This document shows positions 6,016-13,942 of a DNA stretch of 31,372 nucleotides, in pieces; positions within the stretch are counted from its first letter, which is position 1; every line of letters starts with the position of its first letter. The notes beneath the pieces are model-generated. The model was given only the letters and a program-made list of their open reading frames with translations, searched no databases and was not told the DNA's origin. The DNA lies in IMG/VR virus record IMGVR_UViG_3300037140_000092, positions 1-31,372 of that record; one strand, 5' to 3'. The DNA comes from a virus. A program made the position numbers and the translations under genes.

Positions 6016-6236
6016 TGCCGGGGCCGGCGCCGAGCCTTGTGGTGTGGAGGGCGCAAGCACCTCCTCCCGAACGCAATCTGCGCGGGCGTAGCCGCAGCTA
6101 CATAGGAGGCCAACAGATCGGGGGACATATTCTTCACTGCCCAGCGCACCTGCGAGCATGTGAGTGCGCTTGCACTTCCGGCGAAGCCAATCAAAAAAGC
6201 CAGGGCCAGAATACATTTTACTTGTACTGCGGGCAC
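6012..6236 (-). CDS. Small secreted protein of the lysis region (74 aa)
   Basis: The start is a GTG at 6236 with GGGAG nine bases upstream, overlapping the end of the lipoprotein gene by 19 bases. Residues 1-24 form a classical signal peptide (VKCILALAFLIGFAGSASA). The mature part starts LTCSQVRWAVKNMSPDLLAS and includes GRRCL, so two cysteines could form a disulfide in the periplasm. The tail is very basic (HHKARRRPRH). Short secreted proteins with a TCxxVR...RRCL pattern are common in phages of alphaproteobacteria, with unknown function. Its place after lysozyme and lipoprotein suggests an envelope role. Confidence 0.65.
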   Translation of the reverse strand: MPAVQVKCILALAFLIGFAGSASALTCSQVRWAVKNMSPDLLASYVAAATPAQIAFGRRCLRPPHHKARRRPRH

Positions 6237-6454
6237 TTGAGTTTTCTCCCGATCTCATTGCGCTGGTGAATATCGAGAGCCAGTAGGTAAGCAGCGTAGC
6301 GTTGCGACATTTTGTTGCGCGTGTTGTAGGAGATTGGGCCAACCAGGGCGGCGCAGATTGGTGCGATGCTGCTCGGAGGCAGGTCCTTCACATCACAGCC
6401 TGATAAGGCAAACCCTATAATCAGGGCACAACCTGATAAGATAAAGCTTCTCAT
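6218..6454 (-). CDS. Small lipoprotein, candidate outer-membrane spanin subunit (78 aa)
   Basis: I chose the ATG at 6454, with AAGGG about eight bases upstream and the stop of the preceding gene one base away (TGA A ATG). The N-terminus is a lipoprotein signal with lipobox LSGC, giving Cys20 as the lipidated residue. The mature part is 59 residues: DVKDLPPSSIAPICAALVG, then a charged helical part ending RKLKCPQYK. A lipoprotein after lysozyme and a membrane protein fits an Rz1-like o-spanin, but there is no proline-rich stretch and no overlapping-frame arrangement. The spanin role is inference only. Confidence 0.65.
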   Translation of the reverse strand: MRSFILSGCALIIGFALSGCDVKDLPPSSIAPICAALVGPISYNTRNKMSQRYAAYLLALDIHQRNEIGRKLKCPQYK

Positions 6455-6455
6455 T

Positions 6456-6803
6456 TCAGTTTCCCTTCCGGTCCCATCGATCCCGCGGAGCCTTATGGCT
6501 CGCGGCCGGCTTCGGGGTCGTCTGCGTAACAATCTTCTCCACCGCCTTGTCCAGTACCGCCTGTTTGGCCTGCCACTGCAAGTTGGTGTCGTGCTGAATG
6601 TGGGCTCCCCACAGGAGCATCGCTATGAGAAGCGCTGCCGCCCATAACAGGTCCGCGCGGAACTTCGTGAGGAAAGGTCCGACCACCGGGATAAACTGGG
6701 ACAAAAAGGCCAGGGCAATCAGGCCCCCAGCGAGTACCGAGAGAGCACTGTAATCGGCAACCAGATGGCCGATCCCAGCGACGGCAAGTTTGAGGGCTAT
6801 CAT
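6456..6803 (-). CDS. Two-helix membrane protein of the lysis cassette (115 aa)
   Basis: The ATG at 6803 follows the lysozyme stop directly (TGA ATG) with GGAG six bases upstream. Hydrophobic segments lie at about residues 19-46 (ALSVLAGGLIALAFLSQFIP) and 52-66 (LLWAAALLIAMLLWG). A charged helical tail (QAKQAVLDKAVEKIVTQ) and a basic end follow. It lies between lysozyme and lipoprotein genes, so it may be a holin, a pinholin-like protein or an inner-membrane spanin. A separate holin-like gene sits at 29826-30173. The sequence alone does not decide. Confidence 0.65.
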   Translation of the reverse strand: MIALKLAVAGIGHLVADYSALSVLAGGLIALAFLSQFIPVVGPFLTKFRADLLWAAALLIAMLLWGAHIQHDTNLQWQAKQAVLDKAVEKIVTQTTPKPAASHKAPRDRWDRKGN

Positions 6804-10878: not shown

Positions 10879-10907
10879 ACACTAGCCTGAGAGTTCCCCG
10901 AAGTCAA
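10879..10907 (-). promoter_or_regulatory. Candidate late promoter for terminase small subunit
   Basis: On the minus strand TTGACT (10907-10902), 17 bases, TAGTGT (10884-10879). The -10 is weak, but the -35 and spacing match the other late promoters. The predicted start falls at or next to the A of the terS ATG at 10872, implying a leaderless transcript. This fits the lack of an SD there. Confidence 0.45.
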
Positions 10908-11271
10908 GCGAATTCCCCTGCAGCATCAACACTAGCTCGGATTGGGCCGCCGCGCAATAAAATTACGCCGCGGAGACCGTCGGCGTCGCCCATTCGTATA
11001 AATTCTGCGCGAAAAATAGGAGGGGGAGCGAATAACGCGGGCGATGCGTAAGGCAGGGGTCGGCTGGCCTACGCCCCCGGTCTATTTGTCTTGATATATC
11101 AATAGGTTGCGAGTGATATTGTAATAATATATCTCATGTGACGACATATAATTGCGCGACACTATGTTGCGTGCTGTGGCTCTTGCACGAATACAGCTTG
11201 TGGTTGCTTGTGAGCTATAGAGCGCCATGCTATGCCTCGATCTGGCAATGATGCCAATAGGAGAGGACACC
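10908..11271. promoter_or_regulatory. Divergent intergenic control region
   Basis: About 360 bp without a convincing gene separate the leftward late genes from the rightward early genes. It holds an 8-bp bulged hairpin at 11046-11074 (GCGTA-GGC / GCC-TACGC), a perfect 12-base palindrome TTGATATATCAA at 11091-11102, a strongly AT-rich stretch 11090-11160 with a TATAAT in ACATATAATTG, and the first copy of the hairpin-ATAGGAG leader at 11243-11263. No clean -35/-10 pair is seen for the rightward direction. Early promoters may need an activator or be non-consensus. Confidence 0.5.
11243..11271 (+). promoter_or_regulatory. Hairpin-ATAGGAG leader, copy 1
   Basis: TGGCA-ATGA-TGCCA forms a 5-bp hairpin at 11243-11256, followed at once by ATAGGAG (11257-11263) and the ATG at 11272. 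It is the same layout as copies at 11745, 12368, 12630 and 12834. Stems differ in sequence but keep pairing. Confidence 0.6.
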
Positions 11272-11433
11272 ATGAAACGCAAGCCAATGCCTAAAGCCCA
11301 AGCGGCAACTAACCTAGCCACCGCAAAGGAAGCATATGCCGATATTCAGCTACAAGTGCAACCTGTCATTAATCCCCATGGAATAGCCCTAGTGCAAGCT
11401 TTCTATGACTATGCCGATAGCATTGCAACCTGA
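11272..11433 (+). CDS. Small early protein (53 aa)
   Basis: This is the first gene of the rightward block. The ATG at 11272 is set by the hairpin-ATAGGAG leader, with GGAGAGG eight bases upstream. The protein is basic at the N-terminus (MKRKPMPKAQAA), then a helix (TAKEAYADIQ), and ends VQAFYDYADSIAT. It has no known domain or membrane segment. As the first gene after the control region it could act early on the host. Function unknown. Confidence 0.65.
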   Translation: MKRKPMPKAQAATNLATAKEAYADIQLQVQPVINPHGIALVQAFYDYADSIAT

Positions 11434-11466
11434 TATATCGGCTAATGCCTTGATATGATTATATAA

Positions 11467-11510
11467 AATGTGCGTGTGGGACTAGCAACCTGCACGCACA
11501 TTCATTTTTC
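11467..11510 (+). terminator. Intrinsic terminator after the first early gene
   Basis: AATGTGCGTG and CACGCACATT form a perfect 10-bp stem around a 16-base loop, followed by CATTTTTCATT. The stem plus T-rich tail fits a Rho-independent terminator for the 11272 gene. Confidence 0.65.
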
Positions 11511-11595
11511 ATTAACTATATTTAATGTGGCGTGGCAAGCCTATGATATATCACGCTAATCCCCTCTTAGGCCAGACGAAATAGTACTTTTGGGC

Positions 11596-11644
11596 TTGAC
11601 TTTGCATCTTTGTGACCTTATGTTCCCGTGGAACGGGACATAAG
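11596..11644 (+). promoter_or_regulatory. Candidate promoter overlapped by an operator-like dyad
   Basis: TTGACT (11596-11601), 17 bases, TATGTT (11619-11624). Overlapping the -10 and predicted start is a 12-bp inverted repeat at 11617-11644 (CTTATGT-CCCGT / ACGGGACATAAG, one bulged T). It contains the smaller dyad GTTCC-CGT-GGAAC at 11622-11634. The position is that of a repressor operator. A hairpin in the RNA is an alternative. Confidence 0.5.
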
Positions 11645-11744
11645 TCATCAAAGACACTGATGCCGCTTTTAGACCGCAAGTGAATTTTAACCCTATTTCA
11701 TGCTTCCCCTTGCCACCGCGATTGATTGCGAGTATGTCCACGCC

Positions 11745-11775
11745 ATCGGCACTCATGCCGATAGGAGACCACGCC
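11745..11775 (+). promoter_or_regulatory. Hairpin-ATAGGAG leader, copy 2
   Basis: ATCGGCA-CTCA-TGCCGAT is a 7-bp hairpin at 11745-11762 running into the ATAGGAG at 11761-11767, nine bases before the ATG at 11776. Hairpin and SD partly overlap. Confidence 0.6.
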
Positions 11776-11949
11776 ATGCGGACCACCCAACTCATTCTTG
11801 CAGCCATTGCCGCTGCATTCATTCTGATAGCCTGCCAAACGCGATACACAGTGCAGACTATCGACGGAATAGGGGCAATGCGCCTAGATCGGTGGACAGG
11901 TGCAGCCGTCTATGTCACAGCAGTTGAGCGTGACGGCAATGGCCGATAA
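11776..11949 (+). CDS. Small lipoprotein (57 aa)
   Basis: The ATG at 11776 follows the second hairpin-ATAGGAG leader. Residues 1-20 are a lipoprotein signal (MRTTQLILAAIAAAFILIAC, lipobox LIAC, Cys20). The mature part is 37 residues, starting QTRYTVQTIDG and containing MRLDRWTGAAVYV. An early phage lipoprotein exposed at the envelope is a reasonable candidate for superinfection exclusion or receptor masking, but that role is only inferred from location and timing. No family recognised. Confidence 0.65.
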   Translation: MRTTQLILAAIAAAFILIACQTRYTVQTIDGIGAMRLDRWTGAAVYVTAVERDGNGR

Positions 11950-11990
11950 TCACCTGTTAACCCTTTGCATGATTTCTGCTTGGCAACGGC

Positions 11991-12038
11991 TGGCATATGA
12001 TGTAGCCCATGCCAAGGCGGCAGCAACCCAAGGAGACC
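11991..12038 (+). promoter_or_regulatory. Related but divergent leader before the 63-aa gene
   Basis: TGGCAT / ATGCCA (11991-11996, 12009-12014) form a 6-bp stem, and AAGGAGACC follows at 12030-12038 before the ATG at 12045. Stem and SD are 15 bases apart, unlike the tight layout of the other copies. Confidence 0.35.
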
Positions 12039-12044
12039 AGACCA

Positions 12045-12236
12045 ATGACCACATATACCCTGCACCGATGCTATTTCAACGGCCAGCGGATCATTCTTGA
12101 CACTGGCTTAACACTGGAAGAGGCCCAAGAATGGTGCAATGATCCCGAGACATCCTCGCGGACTTGCGAAGGCAAGGAGGCCAAGGAACGGTCAATCGCG
12201 CGAGGCCCTTGGTTCGATAGCTACGATCCCGCTTAA
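12045..12236 (+). CDS. Small early protein (63 aa), ETSS-type phage family
   Basis: The ATG at 12045 has AAGGAG ten bases upstream. The protein starts MTTYTLHRCYFNGQRIILDT, has a helix LTLEEAQEWC, then NDPETSSRTCEGKEAKERS and GPWFDSYDPA. This arrangement (helix, DPETSS, charged turn, GPWFDSY) recurs in small uncharacterised proteins of many phages. Three cysteines are present. No membrane segment. Function unknown. Confidence 0.75.
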   Translation: MTTYTLHRCYFNGQRIILDTGLTLEEAQEWCNDPETSSRTCEGKEAKERSIARGPWFDSYDPA

Positions 12237-12282
12237 CAGGAGACTATCCTCGCCTGAACCCTGGCGTGAAACCAGGAACGTT

Positions 12283-12393
12283 ATGGACTATGGAACGGAA
12301 AGCGGCGGACCCAAGACGGGGCCGGGTGCGAGTTGCCACCCCTACACCGTAAAGTGCGATGTAGCGGCGGCAATTCAGCCGATAGGAGACTAG
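12283..12393 (+). CDS. Possible 36-aa protein
   Basis: The ATG at 12283 has AGGA five bases upstream, within the 3' arm of a small hairpin (CCTGG / CCAGG). The peptide starts MDYGTESGGPKTGPGASCH, and the ORF overlaps the third hairpin-ATAGGAG leader at its 3' end. It may be real or a chance ORF in a leader region. Confidence 0.3.
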   Translation: MDYGTESGGPKTGPGASCHPYTVKCDVAAAIQPIGD

Positions 12394-12396
12394 AAA
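12368..12396 (+). promoter_or_regulatory. Hairpin-ATAGGAG leader, copy 3
   Basis: CGGC-AATTCA-GCCG (12368-12381) is followed directly by ATAGGAG (12382-12388) and the ATG at 12397. One position of the 5-bp stem seen in other copies is an A-A mismatch here. Confidence 0.55.
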
Positions 12397-12594
12397 ATGT
12401 CAAAGTCCTTTCATCAAGTGTTCACGGCGGACCATGGCTTCACTAGCCACAGGGAACGCCATTTTGCCAATGCGGCGGAGTGGCAAAGACGGCTGGACAA
12501 GCTTGATCCTCGCAAGGCGGCGAAGAGCCACATGCAAGCTTTGCGGGACATCATCGCCTATGAGAACAGAATGGCGTACATCGCAATCGGGTAA
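12397..12594 (+). CDS. Small early protein (65 aa)
   Basis: Start set by hairpin-ATAGGAG leader copy 3. The protein starts MSKSFHQVFTADHGFTSHRE and is mostly helical and basic (FANAAEWQRRLDKLDPRKAAKSHMQALRDIIAYE). It has no cysteine, signal or membrane segment. A basic helical protein of this size could bind nucleic acid or a host protein, but there is no diagnostic motif. Family not recognised. Confidence 0.65.
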   Translation: MSKSFHQVFTADHGFTSHRERHFANAAEWQRRLDKLDPRKAAKSHMQALRDIIAYENRMAYIAIG

Positions 12595-12629
12595 TTGCAG
12601 TTCAAGCGGATGATGGCAGTCCGCTTGGC

Positions 12630-12658
12630 CGGCAATTCTGCCGATAGGAGACCACGCT
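12630..12658 (+). promoter_or_regulatory. Hairpin-ATAGGAG leader, copy 4
   Basis: CGGCA-ATTC-TGCCG (12630-12643), ATAGGAG (12644-12650), then ATG at 12659. Here the leader feeds an 8-codon ORF rather than the longer protein. Confidence 0.6.
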
Positions 12659-12685
12659 ATGATCGTACCCGGGAGAATTCCATGA
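12659..12685 (+). CDS. Possible 8-aa leader peptide
   Basis: The ATG placed by leader copy 4 opens MIVPGRIP and stops at TGA 12683-12685, overlapping the next ATG (ATGA). Good SD, tiny size and overlap suggest a coupling leader for the 48-aa membrane protein. Confidence 0.35.
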   Translation: MIVPGRIP

Positions 12686-12828
12686 TCGAAACTTTCCTGC
12701 AATTCGTCGGCATGCTGGCCGTGCTGTGCGCTTTCATCCATGCCTATCCGGTTGCGTCCCACGCATACCTCCCGTTGTACCTATGCAATCTATCCGGTTG
12801 TCTCCCACAACCATCCATGCCATATTAG
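12682..12828 (+). CDS. Small membrane protein (48 aa)
   Basis: The ATG at 12682 overlaps the 8-codon leader stop and has GGGAG close upstream. Residues 3-20 (ETFLQFVGMLAVLCAFIHAY) form a membrane segment. The rest is hydrophobic, aromatic and Cys/Pro-containing (YLPLYLCNLSGCLPQPSMPY). The coding DNA contains an imperfect direct repeat of TATCCGGTTG (12746 and 12791 regions). Role unknown. Early membrane peptides of phages often alter host envelope functions. Confidence 0.55.
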   Translation: MIETFLQFVGMLAVLCAFIHAYPVASHAYLPLYLCNLSGCLPQPSMPY

Positions 12829-12833
12829 CGGGG

Positions 12834-12865
12834 TCGGCGGATGGTCCACCGAATAGGAGAGGCAA
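12834..12865 (+). promoter_or_regulatory. Hairpin-ATAGGAG leader, copy 5
   Basis: TCGGCGGA-TGG-TCCACCGA (12834-12852) pairs with one C-A mismatch. ATAGGAG follows at 12853-12859 and the ATG at 12866. The stem is longer and different in sequence from the other copies, but ends at the same point. Confidence 0.55.
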
Positions 12866-13132
12866 ATGAAAAGTTACAATTTCGTCCGCCAACTTGGGGA
12901 TGGATCGACTTACCGCTTGGGCACTGCCTGCCAATATGCTGACGGCTGGCGCTTCATTTCTAATGTGTCCTCGCATAAAAGCAGCCGAAAGTTCCATCCG
13001 ACGATGGAACGGTGCCTGCCGCGCTGGCTCGGCTATCCTGATCGCTGTGAGAGCTATGCTGTCGCGTCGCCCGGTATCAATGCGCAGGTTGAGGCTCGGC
13101 ACGATCAGTTCATGGCGAAGGTGAGGACTTAG
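12866..13132 (+). CDS. Small early protein (88 aa)
   Basis: Start set by hairpin-ATAGGAG leader copy 5. The protein begins MKSYNFVRQLGDGSTYRLGT, then has a beta-rich QYADGWRFISNVSSHKSSRKFHP segment, a WLGYPDRCESYA part and a helix QVEARHDQFMAKVRT. Three cysteines. No membrane segment. Its layout is that of small phage proteins of unknown role. The gene is complete with a strong SD. Confidence 0.7.
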   Translation: MKSYNFVRQLGDGSTYRLGTACQYADGWRFISNVSSHKSSRKFHPTMERCLPRWLGYPDRCESYAVASPGINAQVEARHDQFMAKVRT

Positions 13133-13135
13133 ATC

Positions 13136-13279
13136 ATGGCACCCTTCGGCGGACAATCTCCCAATTTTCCCCGCTACATCGGCGGGGGAAACCTTTGGGA
13201 AGAGCCTATTCGTGAGCCGTTGAAATGGTGGCAATGGCTCATTCAAGCCGTCACTTTTGATCTTGTTTGTTGGTGGTAA
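13136..13279 (+). CDS. Small Trp-rich protein (47 aa)
   Basis: The ATG at 13136 lies four bases after the previous stop, with GAGG about nine bases upstream. The protein begins MAPFGGQSPNFPRYIGGGNL and has six tryptophans, most in an EPLKWWQWLIQAVTFDLVCWW end. This is an amphipathic to hydrophobic C-terminal segment that could insert into or lie on a membrane. The stop abuts the transposase start. Function unknown. Confidence 0.5.
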   Translation: MAPFGGQSPNFPRYIGGGNLWEEPIREPLKWWQWLIQAVTFDLVCWW

Positions 13280-13282
13280 GTC

Positions 13283-13942
13283 ATGATGGCCCCCGCAATA
13301 GCTGACGTTTTCAAATGGGAACACCTGCCGTTCCCCAAGTCGCTGCCGCAGTTTCAAAAGCTGTTTCCGACAAACGACGCCTGCGCCCGCTATCTTGAGG
13401 GCGCACGTTGGCCGCGCGGCTTTGAGTGCCCGCATTGCGGCAAGAAGGGTGAGCCGTTCCGCTTTGAGGCACGTCCCGGTGTGCTGCGCTGCCGGGCCTG
13501 CCGCCGTGACACGTCGCTGACGGCTGATACGGTCATGGAGCGCACCCATTCTGACCTGACGACATGGTTTTGGGCGGCCTATCTCGTTTCCAGTTTCACA
13601 CCCGGCCTGTCTGCCGTTCAATTCCAGCGCCAGCTTGGCTTGACCCGATACGAGACGGCGTTCCAAATCCTGCATAAATTGCGGGCCGGTATGGTCCGCC
13701 CCGACCGTGACGCCATCGGCGGCAATCTGGCGCGTGGCGATCATGTTGAGGTTGATGAAACGTGGATCGGCGGGGCTACCCGTGGCGAAGGTAAAGGCGT
13801 CCACGATCAAACGCTGGTTATTGGTGCGGTAGAAGTTCGCCAGCGCCCGCCTAAGAAGGGCGACAAGCCCGAACGGCGCGGCGGGCGCTACGCTGGCCGT
13901 CTGCGGTTGGTGCTCAGCGTCTTGGTCAAGAAAGCAGGGTAG
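13283..13942 (+). pseudogene. Truncated IS1595-type (ISXO2-like) transposase
   Basis: The 219-aa product has an N-terminal zinc ribbon with Cys49, Cys52, Cys70 and Cys73 and the first catalytic Asp158 in HVEVDETWIGG, both typical of IS1595-family transposases. The body up to GGRYAGRLRL is well kept. These enzymes are normally about 300-330 aa, and the second half with the remaining DDE-type residues is absent. The end (LVLSVLVKKAG) looks unrelated, and no other frame downstream carries the lost part. It is probably a recent insertion that lost its 3' end. I found no clear terminal inverted repeats or target duplication. Confidence 0.75.

Follow-up and report, generated by a model that had tools for sequence, protein, structure and literature searches.

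Repeated leaders with a promoter-like element, a hairpin and ATAGGAG precede small genes in an IMG/VR virus record

In Cluster K mycobacteriophages, start-associated sequences (SAS) and extended start-associated sequences (ESAS) are repeated many times. They precede non-structural genes that belong to unrelated families, and most of the copies lie in wide gaps between genes. The SAS is a conserved 13-mer, GGGATAGGAGCCC (PMC3203893, PMC11373665). In about half of the copies there is an inverted repeat just upstream, and the ESAS includes a promoter-like element. The ESAS inverted repeat is imperfect, 17 bp long, with a variable spacer; it overlaps a SigA-like promoter, and it was considered not to favour RNA pairing. 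Microbacterium phages of Cluster EF, which form an unrelated group, also have a motif of the Shine-Dalgarno (SD) type and an upstream conserved element before a subset of genes (PMC7302621). The role of start-associated repeated leaders in actinobacterial phages is still called ill-defined. Here we describe repeated leaders in a virus record of 31,372 bases (IMG/VR, IMGVR_UViG_3300037140_000092); this whole stretch is called the window. The nearest described system is the Cluster K one (PMC3203893; Adephagia, PMC11373665), and the leaders of the window resemble it in these points of layout: copy number, gene type, gaps, upstream repeat and promoter-like element.

The leaders also have in common with the SAS the ATAGGAG at the ribosome site, a few nucleotides before ATG. 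The ATAGGAG sites at 11257, 11761, 12382, 12644 and 12853 are each adjoined by a hairpin of 14-19 nt, and in 5/5 copies the last hairpin base is the one immediately 5' of ATAGGAG (zero gap). An earlier sequence-only reading of the window had listed five such sites with their stems and ATGs, and we found all of them where it had put them. The spacing from ATAGGAG to ATG, given there as 8-9 bases, is actually 8, 8, 8, 8 and 6 nt. That reading had missed three features. A promoter-like element lies upstream at an almost constant distance, the leader is homologous over its full length, and related contigs carry it in front of genes that are not related. The leaders are real, repeated and modular, and their function is putative. 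At a probability of about one half, we favour the explanation that they are a reusable cassette of promoter, 5' hairpin and SD which gives small genes a stable, well-translated mRNA. The features of the region, all on the plus strand, are the following (ORF, open reading frame; aa, amino acids).

11208-11236 (+): promoter-like element of leader 1, TTGTGA-17-TATGCC; the score alone is weak (p=0.25)
11243-11256 (+): hairpin 1, TGGCA-ATGA-TGCCA, abutting ATAGGAG; identical in contig L005
11257-11274 (+): SD ATAGGAG, 8-nt spacer and ATG of a 53-aa ORF (11272-11433)
11467-11502 (+): intrinsic-terminator-like hairpin after the first ORF, 14 pairs and then CATTTTTCAT
11687-11738 (+): conserved block and promoter-like element of leader 2, TTAACCCTATTTCATGCTTC...TTGCCA-17-TATGTC (p=0.055)
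11745-11762 (+): hairpin 2, ATCGGCA-CTCA-TGCCGAT
11761-11778 (+): ATAGGAG, 8-nt spacer and ATG of a 57-aa ORF (11776-11949)
11957-12047 (+): looser copy with AAGGAG at 12030 and ATG at 12045; paralogue of leader 2 without the abutting hairpin
12333-12360 (+): weak promoter-like element of leader 3, TTGCCA-16-TGCGAT (p=0.12)
12368-12381 (+): hairpin 3, CGGC-AATTCA-GCCG; the same hairpin lies in contig L004 at 7648 (-)
12382-12399 (+): ATAGGAG, 8-nt spacer and ATG of a 65-aa ORF (12397-12594)
12630-12643 (+): hairpin 4, CGGCA-ATTC-TGCCG
12644-12684 (+): ATAGGAG, 8-nt spacer and ATG 12659 (8 codons, MIVPGRIP and stop), overlapping ATG 12682 as ATGA
12798-12826 (+): promoter-like element of leader 5, TTGTCT-17-CATATT (p=0.007); homologous TTGACA-17-TAGATA in L011
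12834-12852 (+): hairpin 5, TCGGCGGA-TGG-TCCACCGA, with one C.A mismatch
12853-12868 (+): ATAGGAG, 6-nt spacer and ATG of an 88-aa ORF (12866-13132); homologues in L010-L012

The energies of the stem-loops alone are -5.1, -5.7, -5.2, -6.1 and -7.8 kcal/mol for copies 1-5. As a background, an abutting hairpin of <= -5 kcal/mol is found at 2.0% of all window positions, and abutting hairpins as stable as the five copies at 0.4-1.9%. All 5 of the 5 ATAGGAG sites with an ATG have an abutting hairpin of <= -5 kcal/mol, compared to 1 of the 119 other SD-like starts of the window. The Fisher test gives p = 3e-8 on the assumption of independent copies. This assumption does not hold, since copies 1-4 are all versions of a single sequence (YGGCAnTnnnGCCR) and only copy 5 has a different stem. 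In copy 2 the outer AT/AT pairs draw on the AT of ATAGGAG itself. The window has two further ATAGGAG sites. The one at 6102, on the strand opposite to the structural genes, has the abutting hairpin GTAGC-CGCA-GCTAC (6088-6108) but is not followed by a start codon at the distance of an SD. At 11016 both the abutting hairpin and a properly spaced start codon are missing.

The closest relatives of the window are metagenomic contigs: L002 and L003 are near-identical to it, and L005 and L004 have ~70-85% DNA identity. Leader 1 is present in L005 with the identical hairpin TGGCA/TGCCA, and its TTGTGAGCTATAG...GCTATGC is kept there although the downstream gene differs. The block and promoter-like element of leader 2 are also kept in L005, and have an echo in the window at 11957-11999; the L005 version has the stem CGGC/GCCG and AAGGAG as its SD. 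Hairpin 3 is present in L004 with ATGGAG, and the other ATAGGAG-abutting hairpins of L004 are GGGGC-CTT-GCCCC (twice, in tandem) and GCCG..TGGC. Leader 5 has one homologue in L011, which is a different phage; the hairpin there is TGGGGCGG-TGG-TCGCCCCG, and the two leaders align from promoter to ATG. The similarity between shared leaders largely stops at the start codon. The ORFs behind them are unrelated, both for window 11272 and L005 and for window 12866 and L011 8143. L011 does have a true homologue of the 88-aa protein (64% identity), but the sequence in front of it is GAAGGGGAAACGCC, without a leader of this kind. Leaders are kept, genes differ and this homologue is leaderless; thus the shared unit is the leader and not the gene. 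As judged from these alignments, the whole leader is a homologous module. Versions of it are carried by L005, L004 and L011, at least two of which (L005, L011) have it before unrelated genes.

A sequence-only model, R1, run over 20 loci gave no convincing additional copies. A search of viral contigs with the pattern GCCGATAGGAGACC..ATG gave 27 new matches, apparently unrelated, and CGGCANNNNTGCCGATAGGAG..ATG gave 9 scattered matches in bacterial genomes, one per contig. Two alphaproteobacterial genes of ordinary size (L102 7235, L110 3241) are preceded by CGGCA-N4-TGCCG-ATAGGAG; this may be chance, given 9 matches genome-wide.

To find candidate promoters, a sigma70-like hexamer pair was sought in the 25 nt 5' of each hairpin. 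Leaders 1, 2, 3 and 5 and the L011 leader have promoter-like hexamers 16-17 nt apart, the second of which ends 4-8 nt before the hairpin; for the four window leaders the gap is 4-7 nt. Leader 4 has no credible sigma70-like pair in these 25 nt (p=0.75). Among the individual scores only leader 5 and L011 stand out, and the combined p over the five leaders and L011 is 0.0017. The hexamers of leaders 1 and 2 are largely kept in L005. Given an ordinary spacing of the start site, transcription would begin at the hairpin or within a few nucleotides of it.

Palindromes directly 3' of promoter-like elements may also be DNA operators around the start of transcription, where a repressor of the phage or of its host would bind and time the small genes. 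The inverted repeats of the Cluster K ESAS overlap SigA-like promoters and have been interpreted as sites for proteins (PMC3203893, PMC11373665). Nevertheless, we consider a DNA operator improbable, because the half-sites vary in sequence (TGGCA, CGGCA, TCGGCGGA, GGGGCGG, GGGGC, GCCG), the loops vary in length, and the fixed register is to ATAGGAG.

According to the cassette explanation, the promoter-like element would start transcription at or near the hairpin and so produce a very short 5' leader. The hairpin would cap the 5' end of this leader and slow 5'-end-dependent decay, as 5' stem-loops of the ompA/papA type do. In addition, the upstream bases would fold on themselves, which may leave ATAGGAG single-stranded and favour translation. 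The cassette would have been duplicated inside the genome and shuffled among unrelated small genes. It is known that 5' hairpins impede 5'-end conversion and stabilise some mRNAs (review PMC3997798). The ompA and papA stem-loops (cited in PMC3997798) are short hairpins at the mRNA 5' end near the SD of a short leader, which is the position proposed for the hairpins of the window. However, these are single host genes with half-life data, whereas the window has a predicted phage cassette in repeated copies.

We compared the stems of window 12853 and L011 ungapped through the hairpin and ATAGGAGAGGCAAA. The eight pairs (window/L011) are T-A/T-G, C-G/G-C, G-C/G-C, G-C/G-C, C.A/G-C, G-C/C-G, G-C/G-C and A-T/G-T. 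Thus, this homologous pair of leaders differs by two double-sided compensatory changes and by one mismatch repaired to a pair. Among the window copies, the outer pair is T-A in copy 1 and C-G in copies 2-4. When the 3' arms were exchanged among the distinct leaders in an arm-swap test, none of the permuted combinations paired better than the real one (p=0.00015; 1/720 with near-identical copies collapsed), but the arms were chosen because they pair, and the test therefore leans to pairing. A shuffle test which allows for the hairpin search gave a combined p = 0.0006.

Several observations weigh against selected pairing and, more broadly, against the cassette. The stems are short (4-8 bp), and the folding of most whole leaders does not surpass that of shuffled sequences; leader 2 beats its shuffles most clearly of all (z=-2.4). 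For copy 4, the best predicted fold in a 52-nt context is a different one. Covariation in family 1 alone is not significant (105/500 shuffles), and this count is uninformative because three of the five pairs never vary. Abutting hairpins are also found at ~7/40 ATAGGAG..ATG sites in unrelated phages (roughly one in six), in a sample mostly preselected for GCCG before the site, with two L065 sites excluded as L004 itself. The second leader of L005 has a weakened abutting hairpin, and the leader at 12045 retains the module without one. The more distant relatives found via helicase and primase (L016, L066-L071) do not have the arrangement. On the promoter side, leaders 1, 3 and 4 have ordinary scores (p=0.25, 0.12 and 0.75), and a stricter consensus scan picks up none of the leader promoters.

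It is possible to regard the leaders as duplicated promoter and SD cassettes whose hairpins have no RNA role, being an inherited palindrome accident of a GC-rich ancestral leader and chance elsewhere. The close paralogy of copies 1-4, the shuffle-like folds, the hairpins often abutting GCCGATAGGAG sites of unrelated phages (the ~7/40 above) and the hairpin-free persistence of the 12045 leader all fit this. Against it are the double-sided changes between window 12853 and L011, the arm-swap result, and the zero-gap register to ATAGGAG in four different stem families. We regard it as rather unlikely. Support for RNA pairing is moderate, because copies 1-4 are paralogous, the stems are short, the folds are shuffle-like, and chance GCCGATAGGAG sites are often hairpinned. 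The proposal that RNA structure beside the ribosome site has been selected thus keeps the L011 compensatory pair, the T-A/C-G swap and the arm-swap test on its side, and has lost ground to the short stems, the shuffle-like folds and the different fold predicted for copy 4 in context.

Hairpins close to an SD are well known as translational operators, and GGAG in early leaders is the target of T4 RegB (PMC3014915). Hairpin and SD together may serve as a translational operator for an RNA-binding protein of the phage, or as a processing site for one of its nucleases; MS2 coat, T4 gp43 and RegB are proteins of this kind. The gene 43 operator of T4/RB69 (PMC3014915) resembles the leaders in that a hairpin precedes the ribosome site of a phage mRNA. 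However, operators of this type conserve the loop sequence for a protein, and in those of gp43 the ten bases at the top, with the loop, stay the same (PMC3014915), whereas the loops of our leaders differ (ATGA, CTCA, AATTCA, ATTC, TGG, CTT). Strong RegB sites share GGAGRAYARAA (PMC3014915), which is absent here: GGAG is followed by AGGACACC, ACCACGCC, ACTAGAAA, ACCACGCT and AGGCAAAT in the five copies. The sequence-only reading had also suggested a target of a phage regulator or a means of mRNA processing. A sequence-specific regulator is disfavoured by loops and stems that differ between copy families, and processing of the RNase III type by stem length. Typical RNase III double cleavage needs longer stems than these leaders have. 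Judging from the leader sequences, we think an operator or processing site of this kind very unlikely. Covariance models of Rfam gave no match at E<=1 in 10880-13400. Our literature search for phage hairpins directly upstream of an SD, with subscription journals outside it, found nothing beyond SAS/ESAS and the T4 operators.

The leaders also had to be compared with the SAS/ESAS definitions. Their location is that of an SAS, with ATAGGAG 6-8 nt before the ATG of small ORFs lying between structural and replication genes. The 13-mer itself is not found in the window with <=2 mismatches; the best matches have 3 (CCGATAGGAGACC at 11758 and 12641), and the number of matches is 8 against 10.8 expected by chance. 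Instead of the ESAS repeat, the window has a hairpin of 4-8 bp between the promoter-like element and the SD. Conversely, the right arms of Anaya and Pixie contain 33 SAS sites, and at none of these does a hairpin abut ATAGGAG. The Cluster EF motifs differ in their consensus GGGAAAGGACCCC and their GTAGAG-centred ESAS, and no hairpin was described for them (PMC7302621). Thus, the leaders resemble SAS/ESAS in layout, do not have the sequences that define them, and are not members. We tentatively propose a wider reading, a phage start cassette whose promoter, 5'-terminal hairpin and ATAGGAG travel and are copied together, independently of genes, and can be reused horizontally. Its hairpin would be kept by pairing and not by sequence. 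It would be a counterpart of SAS/ESAS which evolved independently, in a phage unrelated to Cluster K, with RNA structure as the selected part. A structurally different leader type in an unrelated phage, with pairing kept despite sequence change, suggests a common solution in which small genes receive a pre-built promoter and ribosome site. Such short leaders allow direct testing of the effect of the hairpin on mRNA lifetime and initiation.

In the window, leftward genes extend to ~10.9 kb (head protein, head-tail adaptor, large terminase). From ~11.2 kb rightward genes follow, namely small ORFs and then primase/helicase, helicase, exonucleases and DNA polymerase. The leaders are at the beginning of this rightward arm, between structural and replication genes. 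This is the usual position of early genes, and the leader-driven genes are probably early. The top named terminase matches come from Rhizobium phages (~45% identical). The terminator-like hairpin after the first ORF suggests separate short transcripts at least there. Five small genes had been counted behind the leaders. At the fourth, the TGA of the 8-codon ORF overlaps ATG 12682, which opens a 48-codon ORF to 12828; possibly the short ORF is a leader peptide translationally coupled to the longer one, or the gene starts at 12682. The looser copy reported before 12045 is indeed a paralogue of leader 2, with a common TTAACCCT...TTGnCA block and AGGAGACCA, and differs in having no abutting hairpin.

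Some of the relatives have other repeats. A second kind of repeated leader precedes several small genes in L011 (7785 +, 9817 +, 6123 -) and in L010 and L012 (9807 +, 8214 -). It consists of TTGACA, a -10-like stretch, TGTACGTACATCGA..., and then CGCTGGAGAGC and ATG. In it GCT-GGAG-AGC could place the SD in a tetraloop, as could GGG-ATAGGAG-CCC of Cluster K. L004 (8440-8500, -) has two tandem units of GCAGGGGCCTTGCCCCATAGGAGGCAGGATGAG within a stretch that is rich in repeats, GCGCAAGATTGTTGCGCGCAATTATATTGCG among them, and the ORF at this place is perhaps no gene. A transposase of the IS1595/ISXO2 type has 219 aa in the window (13283-13942) against 342 aa in L011 (8670-9698), and an inverted remnant of it lies in L004 at 6285-6456.

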